Virus record (IMG/VR): IMGVR_UViG_3300042867_001289
Coordinates: 62,001-126,000 of that record
Source: a virus
DNA: 64,000 bases
Reading direction: 5' to 3' (one strand)
The position numbers and the translations under genes are program-made. The notes below the pieces were generated by a model that had not been told where the DNA came from, ran no database searches, and was given only the letters and a program-made list of their open reading frames with translations. Positions 36,720 to 58,469 of the stretch are shown here, in pieces; the first letter of the stretch is position 1, and each line of letters begins with the position of its first letter.

Positions 36720-37562
36720 TTAAGCAGTTGTTTCTTCTTTTTGCCTAAACCTCGCAGGGGTCCGACCCGACACCGAAACGGGAAGACCAGAATCCTCCTG
36801 CCATGATACTTCAGTAATCAGAAATGGACTGTTAAAAGTCGGAATACCAGTAAAATTTATTGTCATCCCAGGACGCAACTGGGTAGCGTTCGCCCGATCA
36901 AACAACGCCGTAAAATCAGCCTCATACGGGTCGTTATCAGAACGCCTAAAAGTAGGGCACTCAATAAGCTGGTAATAAGAACCTTCGACCGAAGGCCACC
37001 CAGATGTCACATTCCCCCACCTGCCCAAAAGCCAAAACTGTGGCGCAAAATACACGGTCCCATCAACTTCAAAAACAACATACTGGGCGTCCCCAGCGAC
37101 CCGACGCATAACATCCCAAGCAGACTCCATATTCTCATAAAATTGCGTTGTAGTAATAGTTAGCTCTTCAGGACTATCAACCCCAACATACCTCAAGCCT
37201 TGACTATTAGCAGCATATTTCACAAACTCGCTAGGCGAAGTAGCCCCAAACGCTTCAGGGGTTTTATTACGCTTCAAACGCTGAATACCTCTCGAACGGG
37301 CTTCAACAGTTATAGAAGGATCAAACCCCCCAGCCGCCTCAACGTTTATCGAAGCAATTTCGAATGACGCCAAAAAATATTGCACTTCTCGGCGGATCAC
37401 AAAATAGTTATTATTAAGCATAGAAAACCCTGGGTCTCTAAGCTTAATAACCATTTCAGACGCATAATCCATCGTGTAACTAATAGTTACAGTTTCTACG
37501 AGTTCTTCAACGTTTGCTCGTTGGAAAGAGTTAAGACCGGAAAGAATTATAGGAAGAGCCAT
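36720..37562 (-). CDS. Baseplate hub protein (gpD-like)
   Basis: A 280-residue protein with the hub pattern: N-terminal strand-rich domain (V-E-T-V-T-I-S-Y-T-M-D-Y-A-S-E), then E-A-R-S-R-G-I-Q-R-L and the helical-strand segment with F-V-K-Y-A-A-N-S-Q-G-L, and a late barrel (L-R-P-G-M-T-I-N-F-T-G). It resembles the gp27/gpD hub that sits between tube and spike. It lies between the LysM-like adaptor and the OB-fold spike gene, the expected place. Confidence 0.78.
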   Translation of the reverse strand: MALPIILSGLNSFQRANVEELVETVTISYTMDYASEMVIKLRDPGFSMLNNNYFVIRREVQYFLASFEIASINVEAAGGFDPSITVEARSRGIQRLKRNKTPEAFGATSPSEFVKYAANSQGLRYVGVDSPEELTITTTQFYENMESAWDVMRRVAGDAQYVVFEVDGTVYFAPQFWLLGRWGNVTSGWPSVEGSYYQLIECPTFRRSDNDPYEADFTALFDRANATQLRPGMTINFTGIPTFNSPFLITEVSWQEDSGLPVSVSGRTPARFRQKEETTA

Positions 37563-38206
37563 TAGTCTGTGAAAGGATTTCCATCGGCAGCAGTAAACGG
37601 TATCCCATTTCTCGTAGAAACAGGGGCCTGCACCCTCCTCGGAGGATAATCCGTATAAGAAATCGGAGATAAAAAAGTAACCGGAATCGTAGGATTCCGC
37701 TCCTCCGTAACAGTCATCTGAACATCAGCCTGAGTAGCCTTATTATCCAAATCTCGATTCAAAACAGATATTTGCATATCGGTGATACGCCACCATGCCG
37801 TATACCGACCCCTGATAGTCCGCACGCCCTGGAACAGCATCCTATCGACACCGCCAGTAAAATAAACGGGGAAAGGTACCGTTGCCATAGCTCTCAAAAC
37901 CGCAATTTCGATTTCCACATTAGCTTGCCCCCCAGTAGCCCTATTAGCCAACCTAAAATTAAGAGCCGCTTTAGTTAACTGGTAACCGGTAAAAGATAGT
38001 AACGGATACTTTCCGGCACGCTTAACTTCCTCATAAGAAGCCGAAATGTTTTCAAAATTGACTTCGACGGGAGCATAAGGAAAAACAAAAGTTGTAGGCT
38101 CGCCAAGAGAAAATTGTGTCATCAAAGCCCAAGAGTTTGACCGGGTATATCCACCATAATTTTCAAGCCAATACTTATTTTGAAGATTTACAGCTACCCT
38201 TGCCAT
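37562..38206 (-). CDS. LysM-like baseplate/tube adaptor (gp53-like)
   Basis: A 214-residue protein. The N-terminal part (A-P-V-E-V-N-F-E-N-I-S-A-S-Y-E-E-V, then G-K-Y-P-L-L-S-F-T-G-Y-Q-L) has the pattern of proteins between tape measure and hub in contractile phages, which contain a LysM-like or adaptor fold. The second half is beta-rich (A-W-W-R-I-T-D-M-Q-I-S-V-L-N-R). It overlaps the tape-measure start and the hub gene by one base each, so co-translation is likely. Role by position: links tube end to hub. Confidence 0.68.
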   Translation of the reverse strand: MARVAVNLQNKYWLENYGGYTRSNSWALMTQFSLGEPTTFVFPYAPVEVNFENISASYEEVKRAGKYPLLSFTGYQLTKAALNFRLANRATGGQANVEIEIAVLRAMATVPFPVYFTGGVDRMLFQGVRTIRGRYTAWWRITDMQISVLNRDLDNKATQADVQMTVTEERNPTIPVTFLSPISYTDYPPRRVQAPVSTRNGIPFTAADGNPFTD

Positions 38207-41200
38207 CAGATACGCTCCTTCCGTGAACGGGTCTTACGATTAATAATTGTTTCTACAGCGCGAGCAATTTCTTCAGGAGAAGCATTCGGACCTGCCGTAA
38301 TATTAAAATTGTATGTCCCAGAATTACCGATCATAGCTGGTGCGGTTGTCGGTGAGACTATCGGCATTTGGGTATCGCCTACGGGTGCGCCTGCCCCTGG
38401 GACGACATGCAGGTGTCTGCCTCCGGCGTTGTGGAACTCGGCGAACCCACCGTTGTCTTGTGTGAGTTGTTGGTATGCTCCGAGGTTTTGTCCGGTTAGG
38501 TCATAGGCGTTTCCTGTAGCGTGGTCGGAGTTTATTGATCCTAGGCCGTCTGTTCTGAGGCTAGATACGACTGAGCGTTTCCCTGCGATACCGCCGTCTA
38601 GCTGGTTGTGTTTTGACATGGTTCTTTGAAGACGGCTACTCGCTGTATCCGCCTCGCCAACTTTTGCATTAGGATCGTAGAGCGGGTTTCTATTGCCATT
38701 TATGTATTCATAGTCACCGCCTACGTCATATCCGCCACTGACGGGAAGATTGAATGGCGCTGCAGGCTTGATAGTCCCATTGGCTACTAGCCCATCATAC
38801 CAACCAGGATTTTTTGTATACCACGCAGGAGGATTAGAAAAACCAGTTTTGACGCCTAACTGCGTGGCATCTACAATAGCCCTCTGTTGAGCATTTAAAG
38901 AATTATAAAGCCTCTCCTGAGCACCCTGCGCAGTATCAAGAGTAGTCGCAAGATCCACATCTATACCCAAACCTGCAATCAAAAAGTCTGCAGTCGCCTT
39001 ACCGGCATCAGGCCCAAGCAGCTTAGCGGCATCCCTCTGCTCCTTTGTGGTCTCTTGGGTTACTTTCAGCCCCTGAGTGGTTATAAATTTTAGTTGTTCA
39101 GTAGTGGCAGTATCCAAATATTTTTGCAAAGCCTCAGCGCCAGGACCCGTGAGAGTCTGCCCGCTCCGAGCTTCCAAAGAAGCAACAACTTGCCCCCTAG
39201 CAGCATCTTCTTGAGAAGTACGAAAAACCTCGTTAACAGCATCATAAGCCTTCTTATTCTCAGGTGCCTGAAATTCCTTACGGCGACCATACAAAGGGCC
39301 ATCAGGATTGTTCCACTGAGGAGAATTAGGGCCCATCTGCTTCACAAAATATGCTTGCGCAGCAAAAACATCGTCAGGGAACAGGTTCATAGCCTGCTCG
39401 GCTACAGTCTGTTGAAAAGTCCTTTTTTGTTCATCAGAAAGAGGCCCTTGAGTATTGCGAATATCTTCACCACCCTGGTTTATCGCCTCCTGAGCTTTCT
39501 GAGGGGCAAAAACTTCATCGAAAACTCTTGCAATACCCTCAAACGAAGCTTTACGCATAGATTCGTTTAACTCATCTATAGTTTTAGGTATAGCAAGACC
39601 AAGCTTTTCCAGCCCGTCCACAGCGGTCAAGGTTGCGTCGTACAAATTCAAACCCATTGAGTCAGATAGCTTTAAAATTTCTTCTTCAGTTTTCCCTGAC
39701 GCTTGAGACAGGTTGTCAAGGTTGTATTTGAAGTAACCACCAAGAACGCCTGCCACCTTAGTTGCAGAGTCAGCGGCCCTATCTTGCGCCTTTGAAAATG
39801 ATTTTGCAGAAGCTTGATCATCCTGGCCCTTGGTTGGAGCATCAGCGCTCAAACCTTGTGTTTGAAGAGCCTTACGGGTATCAGCTGTCATCAGCCCGCT
39901 ATCGACCATTGAATTAAGAAGAACATCCCTCTGATCTCTAAAATCTTTAATACCGTCAGTAAGGGCATCATCAAATTCTTTTCCAGCATCTTCAATACTC
40001 TCATAAATTGCTTTTTTTGATTTTTCTGGCTTATTGCCCACTTTTTGTGATTCTATATCAACATCATCAGCTCCTGTTTCTTTTCGGATGAACGCTTTCC
40101 GGTCAGCCTCCGAAGTTTTAATACGATCTGCAAGCCCGCCGCCGTTGCCTTTATCACCATAAAGCTTTGTATAAATAGAATCACCAGTTTCAGAAAACAG
40201 CTTATTAAACTGCTCTGGAGCAGCAGCCAGTCCCTGCATTATCTGTTCCGGGGTTTCCCTAGCAGCGACACCACCATAAATAGAACTCATATAAGAATTT
40301 GTTATACCCTCACGCCCAAGCTTATTTCGCTCTTTATAGCTTTTCTCATCATTAGAAGCACCCATAGCACCACCACCGATGCCACCAGCAATGCCACCAA
40401 CAAGGCCGCCGATAACGCCACCAATAACTGTGCCTGGCCCAGGAAAAAGGCTACCAATCATTGCACCGATAACGGCACCCCCCGTAGCACCACCAATAGC
40501 ACCAGCAATAGCACCACCCTTAGCAGTCTGAGCAGTCGCAGCAGTACCTATACCCGCCACAGCACCACCCAAAAGAGGGTTACCAGTCATAGCGCCAACC
40601 ATGCCACCCGCCATCATCGAACCCTGAGCCTCATCAGCCATAAACGGGGTAGCAGCCATCATCGCAAAAGGAAGAGCCCCTCTAGCCGCATTGCCAGCAG
40701 ACGAAGCAGCGCCTCTAGCTTTCATAGCCATTTGCTGACCTTTAGTAAGCGGTGGAGGTGCTTTATTAACCCCAGCAGTAGAACCACCACCACTCCCCGA
40801 AAAACCACCACCCTGCCCTCTAGCAAACTTAGACCCAGTACCACCACCATTAACGTTGACGGTCGTAGCATTAACCGTCATCGTCCCCGTAGTCGCAGAA
40901 GTAGCCCCACCCCCAGGACCCCCAGGCCCTCCCTTGCCACCAGACCCAGGCATGCCCATCGACTTACCCCGACCACCCCAAAAACTATAACCCTTACCCT
41001 TAGCAAAACTACTCTGAGACCCAACACTCTTAACAGCCTGACGGCCCAACAACAACGCAGCAATACCACCCATACCCTGCATCTGGTCCATAACACCACC
41101 AGACTTCTCACCCGGCTCCTTCTTCCCACCAAAAAGAAGTTTCGCAACAGGACCAGCAATATCAATAATCTGCTTAGAAATATTCGCAATCATATTAGCG

Positions 41201-46116: not shown

Positions 46117-46544
46117 TTTCCGAACAAGGTTCCTCTCACGATATGGCTCGCAGCAGCATCCCCAACTTGTTTAGCAAAACCAGCAGGTTCAAAAAGTATT
46201 TTACGTTTAGCCATCTTAGTTGTCCCATACTGGTGAAACTTTGCGTATTCTACATTGGTTCCAAATGATGCCGCCTGCGGACTAATAGTATTTTCTGGAC
46301 CAGATAAAGTCGAAACCGAGTTAAAAAGATTTCCTGTACGGCGCATAATCGGCCATGCGTAACGATCCTTACGGGGGCTCCACCCTCCAGAAGGAAGCCC
46401 GCTCGAAGTGAAATTCTCGGCATTAGACAGAGCCAATACGCCTTTAGCGTAAACAAAAACGCCAACATAGTTTAAAGACCTGGCTCTCATCAAAGCCAGT
46501 TGTTTTTGGGCTTTAGCTGAGTCGTAATCAACTTTTATTTTCAT
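46113..46544 (-). CDS. Virion morphogenesis protein (gpS/HK97 gp10-like)
   Basis: A 143-residue protein with the signature late motif Y-A-K-F-H-Q-Y-G-T-T-K-M-A-K-R-K-I-L-F, and earlier W-S-P-R-K-D-R-Y-A-W-P and R-R-T-G-N-L-F-N-S-V, typical of Phage_tail_S/gp10-like neck or tail-completion proteins. These act at the head-tail junction. Overlaps by one base with the connector before it and by 4 bases with the terminator after it. Confidence 0.82.
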   Translation of the reverse strand: MKIKVDYDSAKAQKQLALMRARSLNYVGVFVYAKGVLALSNAENFTSSGLPSGGWSPRKDRYAWPIMRRTGNLFNSVSTLSGPENTISPQAASFGTNVEYAKFHQYGTTKMAKRKILFEPAGFAKQVGDAAASHIVRGTLFGK

Positions 46545-47200
46545 CAGCCGACCTGTTTACGCCGAAAATTATCAACAGATTTTAATTCATCCTGAGTAAA
46601 CCCAGTGCTCATAGGAGAAACATCCTTAGGGTTCAAATCCTTAATCCCCACAACATCATCATGCATATTCTGGGCTTCACGCGAAGCAGCACGAAGGATG
46701 AGAAGCTTAAAGATTTTGACACTAGGCCCATCAAGGCCAGCAACATAAGTGACTTCTACAAAATCGTTAGACCAAACATTGTAAAGATCAATTCCAAAAC
46801 GTGAACTGATATAATCAACACCAGGTACCTGAGCCACAGCTGAAGCACCCAGCGATGGTGCGGTCACAGTCACAGAGCTAACAGAAAGAACAGGGGTGTT
46901 TCGGAAATATACTGTTATCGGAGGGCTTAACAGCTGCGCAGGAGATTGTACGGCAGAGGTTTGCCCACCATAGGGGCCAGTAGGTCCAAGACCGTACAGG
47001 GTTAGGGAACCTAAAGGTAAAGGTTCTTCAGCTATTGACAACCGGTACGTTTCAGTGAACTCGGTTATCTCAAGAGGCTTTCCTATAAAAGATTCTAATT
47101 CTGATTGCAAACCTTCAAGGATGTAACCAGCAGCAATTTTTTGCCTATTAGAAAAGGAAATGTCCATGTAGTTCTGGAGGTCTGAGACCTCTACGAGCAT
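46544..47200 (-). CDS. Head-tail connector protein
   Basis: A 218-residue protein. Helix D-L-Q-N-Y-M-D-I-S-F-S-N-R-Q-K-I-A-A-G-Y-I-L-E-G-L at the N-terminus, then a beta domain, then D-F-V-E-V-T-Y-V-A-G-L-D-G and a helical R-A-A-S-R-E-A-Q-N-M-H-D-D. This helix-strand-helix plan matches gp6/gp15-type connector adaptors under the portal. AGGACTGAC precedes the ATG. The neighbouring gpS-like gene and the order agree. Confidence 0.72.
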   Translation of the reverse strand: MLVEVSDLQNYMDISFSNRQKIAAGYILEGLQSELESFIGKPLEITEFTETYRLSIAEEPLPLGSLTLYGLGPTGPYGGQTSAVQSPAQLLSPPITVYFRNTPVLSVSSVTVTAPSLGASAVAQVPGVDYISSRFGIDLYNVWSNDFVEVTYVAGLDGPSVKIFKLLILRAASREAQNMHDDVVGIKDLNPKDVSPMSTGFTQDELKSVDNFRRKQVG

Positions 47201-47755: not shown

Positions 47756-48298
47756 CTACTTATCGGCATTAGGTGGCCTCTCGATTACCGGAACCACAGA
47801 AGTTGCACCAGCCGGAGCTTCGACAGGAATCCAAGCCGGAGAATAAGAATAATCAGAAACTTTACGCTTCTTAAACAACGTCCCATCTAACATGAGCTCA
47901 AACTCGTCAGAAGACATCCTAAGCAAAGTTTTCAACTCCCCATCTTCCCACCGCCCAGACCTAATCAACTTCTGAACCAAACGAGAAACCTGCTTAGCGT
48001 GAGGAACACCCCTAGAACGATTCAAACGAAAATGCATAGCCATAGCGTCAAGCTCGTCAACATCAACGATCTGCACCGGCACATAATCACCTAAAACAGC
48101 ACGAACCTTCTTAGAATCAGCAACTTGCAAACGGTAACTGCCATCAATCACAGTCCCATTCTCCATAGCAATAAGAGGCTGAAGCCAACCATATTCGATC
48201 AACGAATCCGTCAACAAACGGACATCTGGACGCAAAAGATAATTTGCCCGCCACGACGGCGGCTTCAAAGAAGTTATAGGCATAGAAACAATATTCAT
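47756..48298 (-). CDS. ParB-like (ParB/Srx/IbrB-type) protein
   Basis: A 180-residue protein with the ParB/sulfiredoxin-like nuclease fold: I-T-S-L-K-P-P-S-W near the start, L-T-D-S-L-I-E-Y-G-W-L-Q-P-L, then the G-T-V-I-D-G-S-Y-R-L-Q-V-A signature (ParB box-like G-x-x-I-x-G-x-x-R) and V-P-V-Q-I-V-D-V-D. Its start overlaps the stop of the PAPS-reductase-like gene in ATGA. This ParB plus PAPS reductase pairing matches IbrB/IbrA gene pairs known in bacteria and phages, whose biochemical role is poorly understood. Confidence 0.78.
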   Translation of the reverse strand: MNIVSMPITSLKPPSWRANYLLRPDVRLLTDSLIEYGWLQPLIAMENGTVIDGSYRLQVADSKKVRAVLGDYVPVQIVDVDELDAMAMHFRLNRSRGVPHAKQVSRLVQKLIRSGRWEDGELKTLLRMSSDEFELMLDGTLFKKRKVSDYSYSPAWIPVEAPAGATSVVPVIERPPNADK

Positions 48299-49461
48299 TT
48301 TTGATCATCCTGTATATCTAGGGCGTCCAACTCGGCGTCCTGTTGAGCGGCTTGCATCCTTAACGTATGGGCACGAGTTTTCGGCCCAACAGGATTGACC
48401 GACTGTCCTGAAAAATGATTTAACAAAAGGTTACGCACCAACCATTCAAGCGGATACGAAACAGGATCACGAGCATACTTTTTGCGGAATTCGGCAGAAT
48501 AAGACATAGCCCGACCCCTGATCCCAGGGGTTAACATGTTCTCATCTATGCAAGCGCGAACGCCGTCCCACCCGCCAGCAGCGTAATCCGCTATCTGGGT
48601 TTCGATATCGTAATCCTTCCACCAACGCCACTGGGCGTCGATCTGCGGAAAACATTCAACTAACCGATCATAAAATTCTGGTTCGGTCACAACAACGTCG
48701 TTAAGTCTGCGAATAGCAACAGAATGCAAAGGGATACCCACACGGGTGTTGGCACCAGTGACAGCGGCGACATCATAATATTCGCAATAGCTGGCACCGT
48801 GTTCTTCGACAACAAACTTTAGGACATCGTCGGTTGTCCAATCGTAAATGACTTTAGCGAACCGTAAAGGTATCGACTTTTTCATCTTGAATGGGATGAC
48901 GATATAATTTTCGTGGAGTTTCTGGACACAGGATCGGTAGCGGATCATGGATTCGTTTGCTCGAACACCTGTGACGAAAGCAACCCGACCTTTTTTGCCT
49001 TGCATTGTGTAATAGTCGATTGATTCGGTTAAAGCTTCGTTAGGGTCCAACCCGAAGTCTTCGGCGGTGATAGCGCCTTTGGGCATATCGCGGACTAGTC
49101 GCCCTTCGGCTTTGCGGGCACCTGACCACAACAGAATATATTCACGGCGTCCCAGAGTCCAAAGCTCGCTCCCGTAGGGCAGGCAGTACCATTCCATGTT
49201 TACCCAGTCGTATGAAGCGACTTCTTCGATGAAACTGATTGTCATCGGGGAAACCATTTCTTCATCCCGAAAAATACAATTTACTGGCCCGAGGTTTCGT
49301 TCTTCATGTATTTCTTTAGCGAGGTATAAAACGGCTGTGGAGTCTTTGCCACCGGAGAATTGGATGCATACAGTGTCGAACGTGTCGTATACATGCCGTA
49401 GCCGTTCTCTTGCAGCGTCAACACAAGTTATGTCATCTAAAAACATTCTTTGTCTAGTCAT
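48295..49461 (-). CDS. PAPS reductase-like protein (IbrA-type, N-type ATP pyrophosphatase)
   Basis: A 388-residue protein with the PP-loop F-S-G-G-K-D-S-T (about residues 35-42) that binds and activates ATP, then R-D-E-E-M-V, V-N-M-E-W-Y-C-L-P, R-A-N-E-S-M-I-R-Y-R and a helical C-terminus. Length and motifs match the DUF3440/IbrA group of PAPS reductase/sulfotransferase-like proteins, rather than classic CysH, which ends in a reactive Cys motif. A DndC-like sulfur-transfer role to DNA is conceivable but unproven. Coupled to the ParB-like gene. Confidence 0.8.
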   Translation of the reverse strand: MTRQRMFLDDITCVDAARERLRHVYDTFDTVCIQFSGGKDSTAVLYLAKEIHEERNLGPVNCIFRDEEMVSPMTISFIEEVASYDWVNMEWYCLPYGSELWTLGRREYILLWSGARKAEGRLVRDMPKGAITAEDFGLDPNEALTESIDYYTMQGKKGRVAFVTGVRANESMIRYRSCVQKLHENYIVIPFKMKKSIPLRFAKVIYDWTTDDVLKFVVEEHGASYCEYYDVAAVTGANTRVGIPLHSVAIRRLNDVVVTEPEFYDRLVECFPQIDAQWRWWKDYDIETQIADYAAGGWDGVRACIDENMLTPGIRGRAMSYSAEFRKKYARDPVSYPLEWLVRNLLLNHFSGQSVNPVGPKTRAHTLRMQAAQQDAELDALDIQDDQK

Positions 49462-49490: not shown

Positions 49491-49847
49491 TTAAGAAACT
49501 TTGGCGTCTTCACGCCGTTTTAGCTGCCGTGCAACCTTTTTGCAATTGCTATCACAGTACAGGTGGCTTGTATTTTCTTGCTTGAAAGGAATTCCACAGG
49601 ATTTGCAAGGCTTGTACCCTTGGGGTGCTTCTGAGTTCATGCGTTCTTTGGGTCCTAAACCACCAAAGATTCCAAAACGTTCGTACCTGTTTTGTTCTAA
49701 ACATTCGAGTTGGACTGTGCAGGTAGCGCAAATCTTTTTCGCTTCAATAACTTTTTGATGTTTTACTGGTTCGGGGTCTTCTAGGTCGAAAAAGAATACG
49801 CTAGTATTTATCCCGGCACATTTTGCCGAGGATTGCCAGTTTGACAT
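49491..49847 (-). CDS. WhiB-family regulator fused to a C-terminal zinc finger
   Basis: A 118-residue protein. Cys10 and the C-x2-C-x5-C of Cys40, Cys43 and Cys49 form the WhiB [4Fe-4S] site, followed by the G-I-F-G-G turn (59-63, Phe in place of the usual Trp) for sigma contact. The usual basic tail is replaced by a second module with Cys81, Cys84, Cys98 and Cys102 (C-K-S-C and C-D-S-N-C-K-K-V-A-R-Q), a likely zinc-binding DNA-contact domain. AGGAG ribosome site. It sits at the head of the PAPS/ParB pair and may regulate late transcription. Confidence 0.85.
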   Translation of the reverse strand: MSNWQSSAKCAGINTSVFFFDLEDPEPVKHQKVIEAKKICATCTVQLECLEQNRYERFGIFGGLGPKERMNSEAPQGYKPCKSCGIPFKQENTSHLYCDSNCKKVARQLKRREDAKVS

Positions 49848-49915: not shown

Positions 49916-52102
49916 TCAAATCGGTTTCATATACCCGATTTCAGCTTCTTCGTTTTTGAATACTTGTTCTGCGCCAGACCAAAAAAGTAGATCTCTGGCT
50001 GCTATCCAGTGGTTGCCAAAATGCTCACTTCTTGACGCTGCTACAAGGCGGGCTAGTTCTTTGGCTTCTGTTGCAGAACGAAAAACCTCATAAGGTACCT
50101 GTTCGGTTATAATGCCAGAACGTCGATCCCCCTCAATTACATTTTTCGTTACTGCTCTAGTCCCCGTTATCGGCCCTGGCTTATTAGCCATAATTTCATC
50201 ACGATGGTCTTCCAAAGCCGACTCAAGAATATCCAAAAAGTTTCCCTTTTGATCCTCGTCACGCCAATCAAAACCGTTCTTAGGCCAATGCGTAGCACCT
50301 TTCTTATCCGCACCACTATGACCGTCAACTTCGATCATAGACATACCCATCCGCCGATAATATTCTTCGTTTCTAGCATTAAAAGCCGAACCAACACCCA
50401 AACCTTGAGAAGCCTCATCTATCATTAATTCATAATGCTCAACTACGCCATCTGACTGAAAAACTCGATCACCAAAACCGATTGGCACACCATCTTCAGA
50501 TCGGACAAGTTTAAATCTGACTCTTAGCCCAGACTCATCAAGATACGTTGAAGTACCCACCGCCTCATAGCTTTTACCGTCAACCCCCATAAAAGGTTCA
50601 CTTAACAATTCATCAAAAAACTCGCCCCAATCACGAATAATCCCAGATTCCTCACTAACCCGTACCTTCTCCTTATCCCAGGCCGCATGAGCCTCAGCAT
50701 AATCCTCACCCCCCTCAACGCTACTTTCAAAATCACTTAGTCGAGGTTCAGGATTTTCAAAAAGCCAATCGTTAAAAGCTTCATCCGAATCCCGATAAGG
50801 CTCAAACTCGGAAAGAGAAACACCTGCTAAAAGCCTTGCTATATCAACACTGATTTCTGGAGTTGATGTCTCTATGATCGCAGCTTTTTGATCAGCATTT
50901 TTACGTCGCTCAAGAAAAGCCGCCTCGGCAGCAGCATCAAAAGCTTCTTCATCCAAATCACCAGAAATCAAAGTTTTTTCAATTAACTCATTTTTCTTAG
51001 ATTCAAAAACTGCTTTTCGTTTCTTCTCATGATCTCGAACTGCTCTTTCAAGAGCAGCTCTGGCATTATCTTCTCTACTCGAATTTTCGTTATTGACTGA
51101 ATCAACACGCTCAAGTTCAGCTTTCAAATAATCGTCTTTGGCTTTATCAGAAGCATCTTTCCAAGCTTTAACTGCTTCTTCATAAGCTTTTTCTATTTCA
51201 AAATCCGTTAAAGAACTTGGAACGCCTATAGCGTCATCAAATGCGTCATTACCTGTAGGAGCTTCAAAAGTTGTGCGTTCAGGGTAAGGGTTGGCAAGAT
51301 CCCATTCGTTAAAATAGTTGGCTCTAAGCTGAATTCTTTCTTCATTGCTTAAAACAGGAACTTTTTCAATCGAAAACTGTGGATCAGTCTCTTTTGGTAA
51401 AGGATTATCTTTATCCCATTGCTGCATATGCGAAATCAAACCTGAAGAAGCAGGTGCTTTTGAGGCATCAGGTTTGTCTGCATCGGCTTTAGGAACAACC
51501 TGATCAGGGACCCTACTTGCCGGTTGCTCTGACCTGGATGCCCGTGATCTTGCATAAAAAGCTCGGGCCTTAGATTCCCACTCTTCCATTGCTACAAATC
51601 GAGCAACCTCGTGTTCCCGAAGCGCTTTCTTATAAGCAGCATTAGGGCGACCAGTTGGAGAGCTAGATATTGGGGCAGGGTTTTCTTCATCCCATTTACT
51701 TTGAAAAGCGTAACGGGCGGCATCAATATCTTCGTTAGAGATAGCTTGTGGAAATTCGGGTTTTGGCTCATCAGGCTCATCAGGTTGATCTTTTGGGACA
51801 GGAGCGCTAACACGACTAGCTACACGCTCATCTATCGATGTTGTAGCAGCTGGCTTGGGCTCTGCGTCGCTATCGGGTTTATCAGCTGGCTTTTCAGGCT
51901 TCTTAATCGGAGCAGCCTGCTCCCACCATTTATTATCACCAATCAGCCCATCATTATCAGCATCAGGAGCATCAAGATCAGGCTCCTCGGCATTCGTACC
52001 CTTAGGAGGCTTAGGCTTACCAATAGTCCTTTTAGCAGCACGGGATAACCGTTCACCAAAATCTGCTTTGGATTCAAAAGATTCGCCATCCAACTGTTTC
52101 AT
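49916..52102 (-). CDS. Large head-region protein with C-terminal GNAT acetyltransferase domain
   Basis: A 728-residue, very acidic, largely disordered or coiled-coil protein. Near residue 48 is D-A-D-N-D-G-L-I-G-D-N, an EF-hand-like acidic loop also seen in the 1161-residue head protein. Repeated W-D-x-x-N-P segments (K-W-D-E-E-N-P, Q-W-D-K-D-N-P, E-W-D-L-A-N-P) occur in the first half. Residues about 515-625 match a GNAT domain: V-E-H-Y-E-L-M-I, Q-G-L-G-V-G-S-A-F-N-A-R-N (acetyl-CoA loop, about 562) and M-I-E-V-D-G. It could be a minor head protein delivered with DNA. The substrate is unknown. Confidence 0.6.
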   Translation of the reverse strand: MKQLDGESFESKADFGERLSRAAKRTIGKPKPPKGTNAEEPDLDAPDADNDGLIGDNKWWEQAAPIKKPEKPADKPDSDAEPKPAATTSIDERVASRVSAPVPKDQPDEPDEPKPEFPQAISNEDIDAARYAFQSKWDEENPAPISSSPTGRPNAAYKKALREHEVARFVAMEEWESKARAFYARSRASRSEQPASRVPDQVVPKADADKPDASKAPASSGLISHMQQWDKDNPLPKETDPQFSIEKVPVLSNEERIQLRANYFNEWDLANPYPERTTFEAPTGNDAFDDAIGVPSSLTDFEIEKAYEEAVKAWKDASDKAKDDYLKAELERVDSVNNENSSREDNARAALERAVRDHEKKRKAVFESKKNELIEKTLISGDLDEEAFDAAAEAAFLERRKNADQKAAIIETSTPEISVDIARLLAGVSLSEFEPYRDSDEAFNDWLFENPEPRLSDFESSVEGGEDYAEAHAAWDKEKVRVSEESGIIRDWGEFFDELLSEPFMGVDGKSYEAVGTSTYLDESGLRVRFKLVRSEDGVPIGFGDRVFQSDGVVEHYELMIDEASQGLGVGSAFNARNEEYYRRMGMSMIEVDGHSGADKKGATHWPKNGFDWRDEDQKGNFLDILESALEDHRDEIMANKPGPITGTRAVTKNVIEGDRRSGIITEQVPYEVFRSATEAKELARLVAASRSEHFGNHWIAARDLLFWSGAEQVFKNEEAEIGYMKPI

Positions 52103-52473: not shown

Positions 52474-53235
52474 ATGCCAACTTTTCAAGAAATGACAGAA
52501 CCACCACCAGAACCAGGACCAGCAGACTGGAACGAACAAGGTGTTGTCATCAAGAAAAATTTGCTACCCGAAGAAGTACTTACTAACTACGAACAGTTTT
52601 GGCTTACCCAACACTCAGAAAACCCAAAAGGCTGGCCAGACTGCCTACCCTATATGAGACACCAAGAAGTTGCAGACCTTTACTGCAGATCAGAAATTCA
52701 AGAAGTTATCACAGAACTACTAGGACAACCAGCAGGACTCCACCTATGCCTCACAGGATGGGTCACCACCACTAGAAACTGGCATCAAGACTCATACCTA
52801 AACCCACATTTCGTTGGAGACAACTATGTGGCCGTATGGATCGCCCTAGCAGACATACATCCAGACTCTGGGCCGTTCCAATATATTGCCGGTTCACACA
52901 GATGGCCACAAGTTACCTTTTCAAAGATTTCGGAACATGTTGATACGAAAGATCCTTTGTGGCCAAGCTATTCAGAACAAATACTTACCCCGATTTTTGA
53001 AGAAGAAATAGAAGCCAGAAATGCGGAAATTACAACATATCTACCGAAACGTGGTGATGTCTTATTCTGGCATGGCCGTCTCATGCACCGTGGATCTCTT
53101 GCTAATACACCAGACATGGAACGGCGGGCAGCAATAGGCCACTACTCGGGTATAAGCTCCAGACCAGACATGCCTAAGCCGGAAAGATCTGGTGGCGGAT
53201 GGATCTTCCCTATTGGCGAAAAGCTTTACAAATAG
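52474..53235 (+). CDS. Phytanoyl-CoA dioxygenase-like Fe(II)/2OG oxygenase
   Basis: A 253-residue protein with the jelly-roll oxygenase motif N-W-H-Q-D (His104, Asp106) and the distal W-H-G-R-L-M-H-R-G-S (His200 or His205), completing the 2-His-1-carboxylate iron site, plus R-R-A-A-I-G-H-Y near 216 for 2-oxoglutarate. P-D-S-G-P-F-Q-Y-I-A-G-S-H is the PhyH family core. It would hydroxylate an unknown substrate. Followed at 12 bases by a methyltransferase on the same strand: a two-gene cassette inserted against the direction of the late genes. AGGGAA ribosome site. Confidence 0.82.
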   Translation: MPTFQEMTEPPPEPGPADWNEQGVVIKKNLLPEEVLTNYEQFWLTQHSENPKGWPDCLPYMRHQEVADLYCRSEIQEVITELLGQPAGLHLCLTGWVTTTRNWHQDSYLNPHFVGDNYVAVWIALADIHPDSGPFQYIAGSHRWPQVTFSKISEHVDTKDPLWPSYSEQILTPIFEEEIEARNAEITTYLPKRGDVLFWHGRLMHRGSLANTPDMERRAAIGHYSGISSRPDMPKPERSGGGWIFPIGEKLYK

Positions 53236-53247
53236 AAGGACTAAACA

Positions 53248-53820
53248 ATGGAATTGTTAAATGTTGGCTGCGGCACACATTATGCTAAAGGGTGGGTAAA
53301 TACTGACACCTGGGAAACTGATACGACTAAGCCTGATGTGCGAGTTGCCCCAGGTGAGCCGTACCCGTTTGAAGATGATACTTTTGATGCGGTTTACCTT
53401 GGTCATGTCCTTGAACATATTGCTTGGCCCCAAGTTGCCACCTTTTTGAAAGACATATCGCGTGTAGCTAAAGCTGACGCAAAAATTTTGATAACAGGCC
53501 CTGATGTCTACAAAACCATAAAACGTTGGTCAGATGGACAAGAACCCTGGTGGCTAGTTGAATCCGTTATGGAACACCAAGGGGTTAATTCAACCCCAGG
53601 AACAGTCGAATGGTGGGACGGAGCTTCACACCACTGGAACTGCCACAACGACCGGGTCCTAAACCTGTTAGAAACCCTGGGTTTCACAAACATCAAAGAC
53701 CGCTTTAACGACATCCCCAAAAACGCTTCTGGGAAAAACTGGAAAGACGATGGGATTACTTGGCCTGTCGTAGGCTTCTGGCACTGGCAGTTTGGCCTGA
53801 GTTGCAACAACCCAAAGTGA
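53248..53820 (+). CDS. SAM-dependent methyltransferase (class I)
   Basis: A 190-residue Rossmann-type methyltransferase: motif I L-N-V-G-C-G-T-H-Y-A-K-G (residues about 3-14), V-N-T-D-T-W as the acidic strand 2, F-D-A-V-Y-L-G-H-V-L-E-H-I (motif IV region), then A-K-I-L-I-T-G-P. Resembles Methyltransf_11-type small-molecule or sugar methylases in phages. AGAAGGA ribosome site. With the neighbouring oxygenase it may modify a metabolite, glycan or DNA base; no evidence chooses between them. Ends 4 bases from the convergent hypothetical gene. Confidence 0.82.
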   Translation: MELLNVGCGTHYAKGWVNTDTWETDTTKPDVRVAPGEPYPFEDDTFDAVYLGHVLEHIAWPQVATFLKDISRVAKADAKILITGPDVYKTIKRWSDGQEPWWLVESVMEHQGVNSTPGTVEWWDGASHHWNCHNDRVLNLLETLGFTNIKDRFNDIPKNASGKNWKDDGITWPVVGFWHWQFGLSCNNPK

Positions 53821-53824
53821 AAAT

Positions 53825-54091
53825 TCAGGTCTTAACGTAATTTGAAACAGCCTCAGACAAAGCCTCATGCGTTTCGCTACTCGGGTTATTCAAATACCGG
53901 ACAGCCGCTTGTGCCGTATAGTGCGATGCCACAGTATGCGGCAAACCAGCTATGAGTATCCCTAGCTGAGACCAAGCGTTAGCAAGTTTCGGATCACGAT
54001 TCTTGATCGCTGTAAAACTTTCGCCAGCACAATAAACCGGATCAGGTAAATTGATTCCGTTTGAAGAGTCTTCGCTTTCCAAATCACCCAT
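53825..54091 (-). CDS. Hypothetical helical protein
   Basis: An 88-residue protein, mostly helical in the second half (A-N-A-W-S-Q-L-G-I-L-I-A-G-L, then A-A-V-R-Y-L-N and E-A-L-S-E-A-V-S-N-Y-V). AGGGTAG precedes the ATG and the start overlaps the preceding gene by 8 bases. No family recognised. It shares an operon with the 87-residue protein downstream of the TTGACA promoter at 54372-54401. Confidence 0.5.
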   Translation of the reverse strand: MGDLESEDSSNGINLPDPVYCAGESFTAIKNRDPKLANAWSQLGILIAGLPHTVASHYTAQAAVRYLNNPSSETHEALSEAVSNYVKT

Positions 54092-54347
54092 TATCTACCC
54101 TTTTCGAATAGTCAATATAGGCCTCAATTGCTGGCCAAACGGTTTCCAAAACAACACGAACAGTGCAAGTGCCACAATGGTAAATTGCCTCATAACGCTC
54201 ATCACGGTCATCAGACCAATCATCATCTTCAAATTCTGTTAATTCAAGAATCTGACCTGCTTTAATAACCGATTCATCAATCAGTTTTAGATAATACAGC
54301 TCATCAAATTCCTCTTCAATACGCTTTTTACGACTAAATATTTTCAT
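54084..54347 (-). CDS. Hypothetical acidic protein
   Basis: An 87-residue protein. ATG at 54347 (M-K-I-F-S-R-K-K-R) is chosen for GGAGG just upstream; a longer frame to 54404 would run through the promoter. Strongly acidic middle (E-F-E-D-D-D-W-S-D-D-R-D-E-R-Y), a C-G-T-C-T pair and a final helix. No family recognised. First gene after a near-consensus promoter, so probably well expressed early. Confidence 0.55.
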   Translation of the reverse strand: MKIFSRKKRIEEEFDELYYLKLIDESVIKAGQILELTEFEDDDWSDDRDERYEAIYHCGTCTVRVVLETVWPAIEAYIDYSKRVDNG

Positions 54348-54371
54348 ACATCCTCCGTAGATAATTGCCAG

Positions 54372-54401
54372 ACCATACCACCCCTTTGAGGCACCTGTCA
54401 A
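54372..54401 (-). promoter_or_regulatory. Consensus-like promoter for the 54347 minus-strand gene pair
   Basis: On the minus strand a perfect TTGACA (complement of 54396-54401), an 18-base spacer and TATGGT (complement of 54372-54377) stand about 25 bases before the ATG at 54347. The -35 is fully consensus, the strongest in the window, and a GGAGG ribosome site follows. Confidence 0.7.
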
Positions 54402-54440
54402 CAATCTAAAATGCCAAAAGATTCACACGATAGCGACACT

Positions 54441-54472
54441 GCCGCTTCTCCACTAGCGGCTATGGTCATACC
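54441..54472 (+). promoter_or_regulatory. Leaderless promoter with operator palindrome
   Basis: TATGGT at 54461-54466 lies 6 bases before the ATG at 54473, which lacks a Shine-Dalgarno, so the mRNA is probably leaderless. Directly against its left edge is the perfect inverted repeat GCCGCT (54441-54446), 8 bases, AGCGGC (54455-54460), filling the usual spacer. A dimeric repressor bound there would block RNA polymerase. The -10 hexamer is identical to that of the divergent promoter at 54372. Confidence 0.5.
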
Positions 54473-54778
54473 ATGTATTACTCAGCAGACAACGAACTTA
54501 TGCTGGGGAACGTTCAAGTAGCTAGAGCTGATCGGCTACCATGTCCAGTCTGCGGCCATCCAAAAGGAGATTGCAAAGGGGCAAGTGAAGCCCCAATCCA
54601 TGTCCTGGGCACAGACGCATACATATCAATGGACTATGAAGAAACTTTTATAGTCAAAGAAGATGTCTACGAAAACCGTTGGATTTCACCTTATACCGAA
54701 TGTAGGGTAAAAATAGCTGTAGCTGGAACGGCAATACCGCTTTCAAAAGCTAAAGCTCTCGGTCTTACTAGCATTTAA
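54473..54778 (+). CDS. Hypothetical actinophage protein with C-P-x-C motif
   Basis: A 101-residue protein. L-P-C-P-V-C-G-H-P-K-G-D-C near residue 24 is a compact zinc-knuckle-like motif; the rest is a small beta domain with V-K-E-D-V-Y and the final S-K-A-K-A-L-G. Short proteins of this type (C-P-x-C-G near the start, then E-x-V-x-E-D) precede nucleotide-metabolism genes in actinophages; function unknown. It precedes nrdJ by 35 bases and is likely co-transcribed with it. Confidence 0.55.
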   Translation: MYYSADNELMLGNVQVARADRLPCPVCGHPKGDCKGASEAPIHVLGTDAYISMDYEETFIVKEDVYENRWISPYTECRVKIAVAGTAIPLSKAKALGLTSI

Positions 54779-54813
54779 ATTCAACTAACCCAACCTCAAT
54801 ACAGGAGTTAACA

Positions 54814-56730
54814 ATGATAACACCCGAGTTCCTTGAAACTTACGACGCCCGCGTTCCCCCATGGGGTTTCGGTGGAATGGGCGAGGCAACAATGCTTCGA
54901 ACATATTCCCGCCCAATTCCAGGACTAGACCGAAACGAAACATGGCTCGAAGTTTGCACCCGGGCAGTGAATGGGGCAGTCGATATTGGCGCTGAACTCT
55001 CCAAAGAAGACGCCGAAAAGCTTTTTGACCACATGTACGACCTTCGTGCAAGCGTCTCAGGCAGAGCACTCTGGCAGCTAGGCACACCACTAGTTGAAAG
55101 AATGGGCGGAGCAAGCCTCCAAAACTGCTACTTCAGCGACGTCGAAAAGATCGAAGATTTCGAATTCATTTTTGACATGCTAATGGTCGGAGGCGGAGTC
55201 GGATTTTCTGTCGAACGAGCAAAGATCCACGAACTACCAAAAGTAAAAAACGCTGTCACAATCACGCACGAACGCAGCAACGACGCCGACATAATCGTCC
55301 CAGATAAACGAGAGGGTTGGAGCCGTCTCCTTCACGCAGTACTCAAATCGTACTTCTACACAGGCAAATCTTTCAGCTACTCAACAATTCTAATCCGAGA
55401 ATATGGGGCCGCTCTCAACTCTTTCGGTGGAACAGCTTCCGGCCCAGGAGCGCTAATCGAAGGCATCGAAAAGATTTGTAAGATCATGGACAACCGGATT
55501 GGCAAAAAGCTCCGATCCATCGACGTCCTCGACATTGTAAATATTATTGGCGAAATGGTCGTCGCCGGATCATCACGCCGTTCAGCTCAGATCGCTATTG
55601 GCGACCCAGACGACATCCTTTTCCTGCGAGCCAAGAACTGGGAATCAGGGACCATCCCAGGATGGCGTGGAAATTCCAATAACTCCATCTTTGCTGACGG
55701 TTGGGAAGAAATCCCTACTGAACTGTGGAAGGGATATCAGGGCACCGGCGAACCTTACGGGCTTATCAACCGTAAGCTTGCCAGGAAAGTTGGCCGACTC
55801 GGCGAGTCTATGCCTGACCCAAGTGTTGATGGTTTCAATCCTTGTGCCGAAATTGCGTTGGCTTCAGGGGAGTCTTGTAACCTTGCAACGCTTTTCCTTC
55901 CTAACATTCGTTCGTTTGAAGAGTTTTGCGAGATTAGCCGTTTGCTATATTTGGTTCAAAAGTCGACAACAGAACTTTCGTACCCTTACGAGAAAACAAC
56001 TAAAATTGTTCGTAAGAACCGTCGGCTAGGGCAGTCAATCACTGGTGTCCTGCAGTGCAGCGAAGAGCAACTATCTTGGCTAGACCCAGGCTACAAGGCT
56101 CTCCGTAAGCTTGACGCAGAGTACTCCGCTGAACACGGCATCCCAGAGTCAATCAGGCTGACAACAGTGCAACCATCTGGGACACTCTCAATCCTTCCTG
56201 GGGTTCTCCCAGGGGCGCACCCAGGGTTTGCCCGCCATTATGTGAGGCGTGTCCGGTTCGGGTCTAACGATCCGCTTGTGAAGTCTTTGCGTGAACGAGG
56301 TCATGATATCGAATATGATATGAACCTTGATGGGACAAGGAATCATACCCGCCAGGTAGTTTCATTCCCTTGCATGTCCCCAGAAGGGTCAATTCTCGCA
56401 GAAGAACTCTCCGCTATCGACCAGATGGAATGGGTGAAACGCCTTCAAACCGAATGGGCTGACAACGCCGTGTCGGTAACCATCTATTACCGCAAGCAAG
56501 AACTTCCTGAAATCCAGGAATGGCTTTCAAACAATTACAACAATTCGGTCAAATCCATGTCCTTCCTGCTTCATCAGGACCACGGTTTCGCCTTGCCTCC
56601 TTATGAAGAAATCGACGAAGAAGGCTACAACAAGATGCTCGCAAAGATCGACCCGACTGTTCCCCTTGTCAAAACCGAAGGCGAACTGATCGACGACAAC
56701 TGCGACACAGGCCACTGCCCGGTCCGGTAA
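54814..56730 (+). CDS. nrdJ: Adenosylcobalamin-dependent (class II) ribonucleotide reductase
   Basis: A 638-residue monomer-type class II RNR. Cys105 and Cys355 form the reducible pair and Cys344 in N-P-C-A-E-I (342-347) carries the thiyl radical, with Glu346 beside it. The C-terminal shuttle pair is Cys630 and Cys635 (C-D-T-G-H-C), with spacing as in the Lactobacillus enzyme. It makes dNTPs from ribonucleoside triphosphates using cobalamin, so the host must supply B12. About 100 residues shorter than the Lactobacillus enzyme. AGGAG ribosome site; opposite strand to the late genes, a metabolic cassette feeding phage DNA synthesis. Confidence 0.93.
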   Translation: MITPEFLETYDARVPPWGFGGMGEATMLRTYSRPIPGLDRNETWLEVCTRAVNGAVDIGAELSKEDAEKLFDHMYDLRASVSGRALWQLGTPLVERMGGASLQNCYFSDVEKIEDFEFIFDMLMVGGGVGFSVERAKIHELPKVKNAVTITHERSNDADIIVPDKREGWSRLLHAVLKSYFYTGKSFSYSTILIREYGAALNSFGGTASGPGALIEGIEKICKIMDNRIGKKLRSIDVLDIVNIIGEMVVAGSSRRSAQIAIGDPDDILFLRAKNWESGTIPGWRGNSNNSIFADGWEEIPTELWKGYQGTGEPYGLINRKLARKVGRLGESMPDPSVDGFNPCAEIALASGESCNLATLFLPNIRSFEEFCEISRLLYLVQKSTTELSYPYEKTTKIVRKNRRLGQSITGVLQCSEEQLSWLDPGYKALRKLDAEYSAEHGIPESIRLTTVQPSGTLSILPGVLPGAHPGFARHYVRRVRFGSNDPLVKSLRERGHDIEYDMNLDGTRNHTRQVVSFPCMSPEGSILAEELSAIDQMEWVKRLQTEWADNAVSVTIYYRKQELPEIQEWLSNNYNNSVKSMSFLLHQDHGFALPPYEEIDEEGYNKMLAKIDPTVPLVKTEGELIDDNCDTGHCPVR

Positions 56731-57081
56731 ATGGGCTTACAAGCATTAGCTCTAGCAGGTGCCCCAGCCCTGCTAGAGCAAGCTTCACAACTAGTAACTA
56801 AAAGAGGCCTAGCCAAAGGCATCACCTACGACAACGGCTCAATAGACGCCACTGGGGCACTATGCCTAGCAGGCGGAGCTAAAATAGAAACACTAAACGA
56901 AGACCCCATAGCAGAACTATCTACAATCAAAAGACCACTAGTACTAGTAATAGTAGAAGCGTTAGAAGCAGAACTAGACTCCGACCTTCACACCTGGAAC
57001 GACCTACCTACCACCACCACAAACATGGTAGCCGCCACGTTCAAATCTTTAGCAGACAAAATATCCATAGCCACAACATGA
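56731..57081 (+). CDS. DUF6197-like protein
   Basis: A 116-residue protein starting directly after the nrdJ stop codon. The pattern A-x-x-L-V-T-K-R-G-L-A-K-G, then G-A-L-C-L-A-G-G-A and W-N-D-L-P-T-T-T-T-N-M-V-A-A-T-F-K-S-L-A matches the actinobacterial DUF6197 group (C/W-x-x-G ... C-L-x-G-A ... W-N-D ... helix), common in actinobacteria and their phages with unknown function. It is probably co-transcribed with nrdJ and precedes a hairpin. Confidence 0.65.
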   Translation: MGLQALALAGAPALLEQASQLVTKRGLAKGITYDNGSIDATGALCLAGGAKIETLNEDPIAELSTIKRPLVLVIVEALEAELDSDLHTWNDLPTTTTNMVAATFKSLADKISIATT

Positions 57082-57140: not shown

Positions 57141-58469
57141 TCAGTCAGGAGCGCCATCGAAGTCAACCTTAACGAATGACTCAGGACGCTTCGTAGCAAG
57201 TGCCAAACGCTGCTCCGCAAGGATCACGATAGCGTTACGAACGAAGAAGTCTGCATGCTGCTCCGAAATACGGATGCTTGCCTGCTCCCGATCGTAAATC
57301 TGTGCTCCAGTACCGAACGCACCCACAAGAGCAGTGCCCTCAGGGATAGCAGGAGTGTCAACGATTGGCATACGCCAGATACGGGCCTCAGCACCAACCT
57401 GCATGGACATCGCCATGAGGTAAGTACCCTGCTCGTTCTTCGTAAGCTCAATGTCTTCCCAATCGTTCGGGTGGAGAACCACACCGGACGGCTCGTAGTA
57501 AGCAAGGAAAGCAAGAGTAGCCGAGCGGCGCAGAGCGTCACCCTTCGAGTCAGGAACTGGCAGGGTCGCACCTTCGGACCATGCATACTCCTGAACACCA
57601 GCGTTCAAGATACCGAGAAGGTTCTCTCCGGTTCCATCACCCGAAAGGATTTGGTAATCCTCCTGGAGACGAAGACCATAAAGAAGCTCGTTATCAATGA
57701 TCGAACGAAGCTGAGGCTCATCAGCCAGAACGTTACGGTGAGCAGCTTCCCAGTGCGCAAGAGTGCGAACCGGAGCCTGCTGACCAACAAACTGGAAGCT
57801 CGACTGAGGCTTAAGACCAAAGTCGCCGCCGTTACGCTCAGCAACAGTAGAAGCCGCATTCACAGCAGTCGTCTCAGGAGTCGTGAATCCACGCATCTGG
57901 AAATACTCAATCACCGCAGCAGTGGTTGTGCGTGAAGGGAAAAGATCCCGAACACGACGAGTACGCATCGGCGGAATGACCATATCGTCACGCTGAATCG
58001 TACCGAACGCACCAGGAGTTCCAGAGGGAAGACCCGAGTAAACGTCCTTCTGTCCCCACATCGCACCAACATCGGAACGCTCAAGGACGAACGGCGCTGG
58101 CATGTTTGCCCCACCACGACCCGAATCAAGAGACTTGAATTCTGCTGAATCCAAGAACAACTGACCGAGCGACTTGCCCTGAGGAGCCCAAAGACCAGAA
58201 GCGGAATCTGCGGCAACGCTAGCTGCAACAGACTCAGACTGTGCTTCAGAACCCCAAGCGTCTAGCGTCTTCAAAGATTCCATGCCCTCAATGAGAGACT
58301 TGATTTCCTTGATGTCAACCATGTTCTTATCAAAAGCTGACTTCTGCTCAGTTGTGACGATGACAGTTCCATCTTCGATGCGGAAATCATCAGCAATCTG
58401 ACGATTCTCAGCAGTCTTGGATCGAAGTGCACCCTGTAGTTCCCGCAAGCGGCTTTCATCAAATGACAT
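57141..58469 (-). CDS. Major capsid protein (HK97 fold)
   Basis: A 442-residue protein with the HK97 capsid plan: an N-terminal coiled-coil delta-like region (about 1-95), the linker region up to about 150, then a long core with P-P-M-R-T-R-R-V-R-D-L-F-P, S-S-F-Q-F-V-G-Q-Q-A-P-V-R-T-L-A-H-W, S-I-I-D-N-E-L-L-Y-G-L, L-S-G-D-G-T-G-E-N-L-L-G-I and V-V-L-H-P-N-D-W-E. The D-G-T-G-x-N-x-x-G-I loop is typical. It is preceded by the strongest-context late promoter (58561-58589). No separate scaffold gene is evident; the N-terminal region may act as the scaffold. Confidence 0.93.
   Translation of the reverse strand: MSFDESRLRELQGALRSKTAENRQIADDFRIEDGTVIVTTEQKSAFDKNMVDIKEIKSLIEGMESLKTLDAWGSEAQSESVAASVAADSASGLWAPQGKSLGQLFLDSAEFKSLDSGRGGANMPAPFVLERSDVGAMWGQKDVYSGLPSGTPGAFGTIQRDDMVIPPMRTRRVRDLFPSRTTTAAVIEYFQMRGFTTPETTAVNAASTVAERNGGDFGLKPQSSFQFVGQQAPVRTLAHWEAAHRNVLADEPQLRSIIDNELLYGLRLQEDYQILSGDGTGENLLGILNAGVQEYAWSEGATLPVPDSKGDALRRSATLAFLAYYEPSGVVLHPNDWEDIELTKNEQGTYLMAMSMQVGAEARIWRMPIVDTPAIPEGTALVGAFGTGAQIYDREQASIRISEQHADFFVRNAIVILAEQRLALATKRPESFVKVDFDGAPD

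Follow-up and report, generated by a model that had tools for sequence, protein, structure and literature searches.

Gene content of the locus

The window, by which we mean the whole 64,000-nucleotide stretch analyzed here, corresponds to bases 62001-126000 of a 128,048-base IMG/VR virus record, a phage of ~128 kb described as a freshwater phage. The initial annotation drew attention to a PAPS-reductase-like protein with the motif S-G-G-K-D-S-T and to a ParB-like protein whose gene overlaps it in ATGA. Both reading frames are present on the minus strand at the coordinates listed below. S36-G-G-K-D-S41 is intact and followed by T, and the stop codon of the first gene (PAPSR) overlaps the start codon of the second (ParB2) in ATGA. 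The features considered here are as follows.

48295-49461, minus strand: PAPSR, a PAPS-reductase-like PP-loop enzyme of 388 aa (ATG start; ORF listing; Pfam and PHROG matches)
47756-48298, minus strand: ParB2, an IbrB-like protein of the ParB/Srx superfamily, 180 aa (ATG start; ATGA overlap; homology)
Genome 25308-26093 (= L086:5308-6093), outside the window: ParB1, the third partner (profile and homology)
49491-49847, minus strand: WhiB-like gene, 118 aa, directly upstream of PAPSR (Pfam Whib, 50.3 bits)
46544-47200, minus strand: head-tail adaptor-like neighbor, downstream, context (PHROG 442 head-tail adaptor, E = 1.7e-5)
57141-58469, minus strand: major capsid protein, context (Pfam Phage_capsid, 138 bits)
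52474-57081: block of genes on the opposite strand, between the pair and the capsid gene

The pair had been placed inside a head-tail operon. This description fits the downstream side, where head-tail adaptor, neck and sheath-position genes follow ('sheath' being our own reading of that gene's identity), but is loose upstream. There, the same-strand genes are the WhiB-like gene, a 728-aa ORF and then, past the intervening opposite-strand block, the capsid gene. We treat the WhiB-like gene as context, its membership of any module being putative; among the loci scanned, only the window phage and its nearest relatives have it next to PAPSR. A RuvC-like gene was often found among the neighbors of PAPSR in the loci read out.

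PAPSR has an intact PP-loop site

PAPSR matched the Pfam PAPS_reduct model (30.6 bits; cut-off 22.5) and PHROG 2302, 'PAPS reductase' (E = 1.4e-68), and a sequence search against solved structures gave no match up to E = 1. In an alignment of 219 sequences, SGGKDS, D66/E68, R167-x-x-E170-S171-x-x-R174 and D207-W208 were invariant or nearly so. The exceptions among the PP-loop and substrate-loop residues listed were E67, A168 and C226, which differ in the IbrA type. Cysteine occupied position 226 in 141/141 sequences of the window lineage (135) and of the cultured type or similar (6), whereas 75 of 78 IbrA-type sequences have Asn there. C93 was found in 135/135 window-lineage sequences and in just 2/6 of the cultured type or similar, so a sulfur relay through two cysteines is not shared across the family. 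C13 (127/135) and C32 (130/135) were seen in the window lineage only. The alignment, in which these cysteines were inspected as candidate ligands of a [4Fe-4S] cluster like that of DndC, was made up of window-lineage, cultured-type and IbrA-type sequences.

An AF2 model of PAPSR, built from a 44-row alignment (pLDDT 86.2), predicts a PP-loop domain (~residues 8-268 matched) and a helical C-terminal part. The closest solved fold was the PAPS domain of FAD synthase (Z 16.5; 178 residues, 3.3 Å), followed by APS/PAPS reductases (Z ~14.5) and ATP sulfurylase (14.4). Matches to the tRNA thiolases and TilS were lower, at ~10 (NcsA, Z 10.8; TtuA, Z 10.6; TilS, Z 9.6). Structures of DndC, SspD and BrxP were absent among the fold matches listed, which is uninformative either way.

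These comparisons bear on three candidate roles for the enzyme. Pfam and the record annotations both say PAPS reductase, and the predicted fold matches CysH, as would be expected of an auxiliary metabolic gene that reduces PAPS in sulfate assimilation. CysH enzymes carry the catalytic motif ECG-x-H. Yet this motif is missing in PAPSR and occurs in only 1 of the 219 aligned sequences (L279, IbrA-type), and sulfate assimilation would leave the constant ParB partners without a part; we find this role barely credible. Modification of RNA or tRNA, of the thiolase or lysidine type, would suit a PP-loop fold common to tRNA thiolases and TilS. But those enzymes fall well under FAD synthase and the APS/PAPS reductases (Z 13-16.5), the partners of PAPSR have ParB-type DNA-binding folds, and no tRNA gene was found in the window. 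We regard this role as very unlikely.

The third candidate, DndC-type phosphorothioation of DNA, had been raised in the initial annotation and fared poorly. DndC, SspD and BrxP share a PP-loop core of the PAPSR type, and Dnd systems have a ParB-superfamily partner in DndB (available text of PMC12839542). NCBIfam and padloc models, however, showed weak DndC/BrxP/LarE-type similarity at most, with PAPSR at 21.2 bits against a DndC cut-off of 290.4 and at 23 bits in padloc. DndD was found in 0/23 PAPSR-positive records, several of which may be fragments, with matches in 9/14 controls and none over the cut-off. The cysteine desulfurase family (Aminotran_5) was likewise found in 0/23 records, with 14/14 controls positive; the host would thus have to supply any sulfur. 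As judged from gene content, the absence of this phage-coded donor weighs against self-sufficient sulfur chemistry, and Dnd-type phosphorothioation appears highly improbable.

ParB2 is related to IbrB

ParB2 matched PHROG 2159, 'ParB-like' (E = 6.2e-28), and more weakly the N-terminal part of PHROG 498, DNA methyltransferase; Pfam gave no match up to E = 0.01. It is homologous to ParB2 of phages Kovu and Athena (33-34%, E ~1e-29) and to a Streptococcus phage IbrB (26%, E = 1e-13). The alignment with IbrB is full length and includes the DG..R, R.N..G and S.AW positions. Both G53 and R56 of the G-x-x-R motif are invariant. The AF2 model (pLDDT 82.5) resembled KorB across the N-domain and HTH (Z 13.4, 138 residues, 3.0 Å) and CTP/CDP-bound ParB (Z ~11.5, ~92 residues). 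The predicted ParB N-domain fold, together with G-x-x-R and the HTH, places ParB2 in the ParB/Srx superfamily, and we propose that it is a nucleotide-dependent DNA-binding partner.

The initial annotation had described the pair as IbrA/IbrB-like. The kinship of ParB2 with IbrB is borne out by homology and motifs, but membership of PAPSR in IbrA is not: the C-terminal DUF3440 was found in 0/6 records (the window phage and 5 others), whereas the E. coli and L. lactis controls both had it. Like IbrA/IbrB (YbdN/YbdM in E. coli K-12), the phage genes set a PP-loop PAPSR core beside an overlapping ParB/Srx gene. Unlike them, they are joined by an extra ParB1, and the cassette of cultured relatives precedes terminase.

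A rival reading is a regulatory pair of the IbrA/IbrB kind: PAPSR would make or use a small nucleotide, ParB2 would sense nucleotide and DNA, and late or host genes would be switched. Besides the homology of ParB2 to IbrB, IbrA-type proteins share 20-27% identity with the PAPSR core, and an IbrB-type gene lies within 600 bases in 75 of 77 informative cellular loci (of 80), most of them IbrA-type. Moreover, ybdNM of K-12 is a CitR-repressed operon (PMC9068703, available text), and IbrA/IbrB is described as a co-activator of prophage gene expression in the accessible part of PMC4490671, which counts against DNA modification. Set against these points are the missing DUF3440, active sites that differ because the invariant C226 is Asn in nearly all IbrA-type proteins, and the lack of ParB1 and of the terminase slot in the IbrAB loci read from an E. 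coli phage and a Vibrio plasmid. On balance, we consider a regulatory pair unlikely. One of the two misses among the 77 cellular loci, L226, has an overlapping ParB2 match. The pair also has a DNA-directed neighbor in Streptococcus CHPC1062 and in Flavobacterium FCV-1.01, where a gene for an SNF2-type helicase precedes it.

The pair is conserved and under constraint

We picked relatives from IMG/VR with the sheath-position protein, so that they were not selected by PAPSR. Of the 56 loci obtained, all 31 in which the sequence upstream of the sheath gene reaches 4 kb or more had both PAPSR and ParB2 (31/31). PAPSR was absent in the other 25/56, every one of which has <3.2 kb of upstream sequence. 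Across 15 non-redundant loci, PAPSR was more conserved than the sheath protein in 105/105 pairs, with median identities of 70% for PAPSR, 57% for sheath and 49% for ParB2. PAPSR distances followed those of the sheath protein (Spearman 0.90), as expected under vertical descent. Among PAPSR-selected loci (80 retained of at least 597 confirmed), ParB2 adjoins PAPSR in most.

PAPSR and its counterpart in the nearest relative, L002, differ in 3 amino acids and at 105 synonymous codons out of 388; for the sheath gene, with 486 codons, the figures are 62 and 113. By these codon counts, purifying selection on PAPSR is strong. Recurrence of the pair in 31/31 relatives, combined with such selection, is therefore far beyond chance. 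As far as sequence comparison can tell, the pair is core and strongly constrained, and no passenger. Recent gene exchange was considered as a cause of the 99% PAPSR identity to L002 and rejected: fourfold-site divergence (39/119 in PAPSR, 43/177 in sheath) resembles that of the neighbors.

A second ParB-type protein accompanies the pair

Searches of IMG/VR with ParB2 or ParB1 as the sole query yielded 5 and 7 loci, respectively, too few to measure associations, so we used whole-record profile searches. Profiles of ParB1 and ParB2 each matched 25/25 large PAPSR-positive contigs, all of which had been chosen for PAPSR and some of which are near-identical, so that they are not 25 independent cases. 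The distance from PAPSR is at most 3 kb for ParB1 in 20/25 and at most 600 bases for ParB2 in 23/25. In the remainder, the partners are unlinked yet present (ParB1 in G000, G003, G007, G008 and G009; ParB2 in G007 and G008).

ParB1 and PAPSR are 84 kb apart in the window phage. This ParB1 matched Kovu gp5 (31%, E = 1e-25), and its best PHROG is 723 (E = 4.2e-39), as it is for Athena gp1 and LizLemon gp1. ParB1 and ParB2 belong to different families: ParB2 is of the IbrB type, and ParB1 has a distinct C-terminal region, with AGNHT at the usual G..R position in 6/9 aligned sequences. Thus, the PAPSR/ParB pairing proposed at the outset exists, but this third partner, being outside the window, had been missed. 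The accompanying argument from late position is weak for the window phage, given how often PAPSR is close to ParB1 in its relatives; it finds more footing in cultured actinophages, where the cassette is directly upstream of terminase.

In cultured relatives, the cassette fills a slot used by DNA-modification genes in other phages

The order ParB1-PAPSR-ParB2-terminase was found in Arthrobacter phage Kovu, Mycobacterium phage Athena, the M. abscessus prophage prophi79-1 and an Amycolatopsis japonica plasmid that also has terminase and portal genes, with small genes interspersed in some cases. In the window phage, PAPSR does not lie between ParB1 and terminase. ParB genes flank PAPSR on both sides in Bacillus 055SW001 and Rhizobium P11VFA as well.

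For comparison, we read out ParB1 loci of phages lacking PAPSR. The flanks of the slot in LizLemon, Baee, Evaa and NTR1 match those of Athena, at 45-53% for ParB1 and 43-67% for terminase (two blocks); RuvC, compared in the first three of these four sister phages, matches at 35-50%. The contents of the slot, or of the corresponding region where ParB1 is not at the left end of the genome, are as follows.

LizLemon, Bananafish: TGT + QueC/D/E + FolE
Typha, StAugustine: TGT/DpdA + Que genes (TGT model matches)
Baee: weak Tet_JBP match + TAGT (138.6 bits) + PIG-L
NTR1: TAGT (124.6 bits)
Adawi: weak Tet_JBP match
MakoManhole: weak Tet_JBP match, ADDT (92 bits), Ploopntkinase3 (198.6 bits)
Evaa: ParB-methyltransferase (as annotated) + methyltransferase-domain protein
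NHagos, Axumite: ATPase/GNAT + formyltransferase-domain proteins
Ottawa (not left end): ParB1, second ParB, weak Tet_JBP match, kinase, terminase
Sonny, Phonegingi (not left end): Mom (206.7 and 157.3 bits) adjoining ParB1
Kabocha, Cantare (not left end): ParB fused to DUF4417

A recognized DNA-modification gene lies within a few genes of ParB1 in 12 of these 16 loci, a set that was hand-picked from 253 and 272 hit records, is neither random nor accompanied by a base rate, and includes close relatives (LizLemon and Bananafish are one species; NHagos and Axumite, one genus). The types are TGT/DpdA (4), TET/JBP-like (4), TAGT (1), methyltransferase (1) and Mom (2). All four TET/JBP-like matches are under the Pfam cut-off, three being beside TAGT, ADDT/kinase or kinase, and two of them (Baee gp2, Adawi gp2) are annotated as queuine tRNA-ribosyltransferase and were counted as TET/JBP-like on the weak Tet_JBP matches. 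The PHROGs label for Baee gp2 remains TGT. No recognized DNA-modification enzyme was present in NHagos, Axumite, Kabocha or Cantare (4/16).

Some of these cassettes have known chemistry. Rosebush and LizLemon belong to one species. According to the available text of PMC6884629, dPreQ0 is present at ~28% of the G in Rosebush DNA, and the DNA of Orion, which has DpdA alone, lacks 7-deazaguanine. Because of the latter case, presence of a cassette need not mean activity. The ParB gene in the slot of CRB2 has been suggested to be a DpdB homolog (PMC6392294, accessible part). With the DpdA-Que cassettes of Rosebush, LizLemon and CRB2, the PAPSR cassette shares the ParB1 family and the slot before terminase and RuvC. 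It differs in its catalyst, which is of the PP-loop type rather than a transglycosylase, in a slot without a preQ0 pathway, and in its second ParB, ParB2. TET/JBP-, TAGT-, ADDT/kinase- and Mom-type cassettes likewise have a ParB1-type gene followed by modifying enzymes, but their catalysts and chemistry are unrelated to PAPSR.

By gene order, then, the cassette in cultured relatives sits where DNA-modification genes are otherwise found; the slot argument rests on cultured actinophages. Across PAPSR-positive records, TGT was found in 0/23 and TET in 1/23, counts that carry little weight as evidence of mutual exclusion because DpdA and TET are rare anyway. Exclusivity is imperfect: in one contig, G020, which has ParB1-PAPSR-ParB2, a further ParB1-like match has a Tet_JBP match close by.

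The slot also bears on whether PAPSR might be an anti-defense or host-takeover enzyme that acts late in infection on a host nucleotide signal or host protein. The closest folds include FMN adenylyltransferases, which transfer a nucleotidyl group to a small molecule, as such an enzyme might. Yet this scenario leaves unexplained both the constant ParB1 and ParB2 partners and the slot common to DNA-modification cassettes, and we deem it quite unlikely.

A putative DNA-modification module

Together, these data lead us to favor, with some confidence, the view that PAPSR, ParB2 and ParB1 form a phage DNA-modification module. DNA modification was one of the options offered initially and is now favored by comparative context. 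Read most simply, the predicted folds suggest that ParB-type clamps bring an ATP-using enzyme to DNA. ParB1 and ParB2, with their ParB/Srx folds, would load onto phage DNA after its replication and there bring in or position PAPSR, whose PP-loop site would activate, with ATP, either a DNA group or an incoming group. PAPSR would thereby alter base or backbone before packaging, and the altered DNA may shield the phage genome from host nucleases. We infer that DNA is the substrate, that the ParB proteins are loaders and that protection is the purpose, drawing on context for the DNA target and the purpose. The group added may be sulfur; transfer of an amine or a nucleotidyl would fit the modeled fold equally well. 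In any event, we would not classify the PAPSR/ParB2 pair as IbrAB, DndC or CysH.

A broader proposal is that two ParB/Srx clamps loading a PP-loop enzyme, for ATP-activated transfer of sulfur, amine or a nucleotidyl group, represent a new kind of DNA hypermodification in viruses, and that ParB clamps are a shared adaptor for swapped catalysts. We give this proposal about an even chance. The catalysts swapped on the adaptor would be transglycosylase, TET, Mom, methyltransferase and PP-loop enzymes.

In the literature open without subscription, preprints aside, we found no paper that assigns a reaction to the IbrAB-type PAPSR/ParB pair or a function to its phage form, and none on its exchange with DpdA or TET cassettes in the slot. 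The role of ParB/Srx proteins beside DNA methyltransferases is stated as unknown in the available text of PMC12783734. If the module acts as proposed, PP-loop chemistry would be added to phage DNA modifications, ParB/Srx proteins, including those beside DNA methyltransferases, would gain a common function, and the presence of PAPSR, core and strongly constrained, in a widespread group of uncultured phages would be accounted for. The slot comparison makes the PAPSR/ParB question directly testable, as M. smegmatis and Arthrobacter phages with the cassette are cultured and easily grown. Moreover, for Rosebush, a sister species with another cassette in the slot, DNA modification has already been proven chemically.

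Surroundings of the PAPS-reductase-like gene in the window phage

The capsid gene and the PAPS-reductase-like gene (PAPSR) are separated by a plus-strand block whose oxygenase/methyltransferase/putative reductase arrangement was found, among the loci scanned, in the closest relatives only. Upstream of PAPSR lies a 728-aa ORF with a DADNDG motif, which gave no match in Pfam and PHROG searches and is variable (67% between close relatives).

52474-56730, plus: PhyH-type oxygenase, methyltransferase and an ORF read as ribonucleotide reductase
49916-52102, minus: 728-aa ORF
12598-15615, minus: collagen-like repeat protein

Several WhiB-like genes occur in this one phage genome, pointing to an actinobacterial host. 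The second and third lie in L086, a piece of the same record outside the window.

Window 49491-49847: WhiB-like
L086:6992-7276: WhiB-like
L086:10169-10537: WhiB-like, assigned by reading the sequence

Further along the record (L086-L087, genome about 40-60 kb), 'TYHLTER.NM' / 'TNQQG' recurs directly 5' of small genes. These repeats are probably a recurring leader or promoter, translated in frame.

Neighbors and fusions of the ParB-type partners in other phages

Beside ParB1, a ParB/Srx-type partner of PAPSR, two phages carry genes annotated as queuine tRNA-ribosyltransferase. Both match Tet_JBP weakly despite this label, making misannotation possible. In the large PAPSR-positive contig G020, a second ParB1-like match is followed by a Tet_JBP match above the cut-off (37387-38867). 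ParB domains fused to DUF4417, which may be a further domain for DNA modification or DNA processing, adjoin resolvase or endonuclease genes in two ParB1 loci, and SNF2-type helicase genes lie immediately 5' of IbrA/IbrB-type genes in two further phages.

L330:819-1697: Baee gp2
L344:785-1753: Adawi gp2
L347:3953-5536: ParB-DUF4417, Kabocha
L350:3950-5347: ParB-DUF4417, Cantare
L154:2776-4011: SNF2-type helicase, Streptococcus phage
L155:2240-3451: SNF2-type helicase, Flavobacterium phage

When the terminase of Mycobacterium phage Athena (L083:2696-5236) was aligned with its relatives, the match fell into two blocks separated by about 250 additional residues (275-524), a pattern expected of an intein or insertion.
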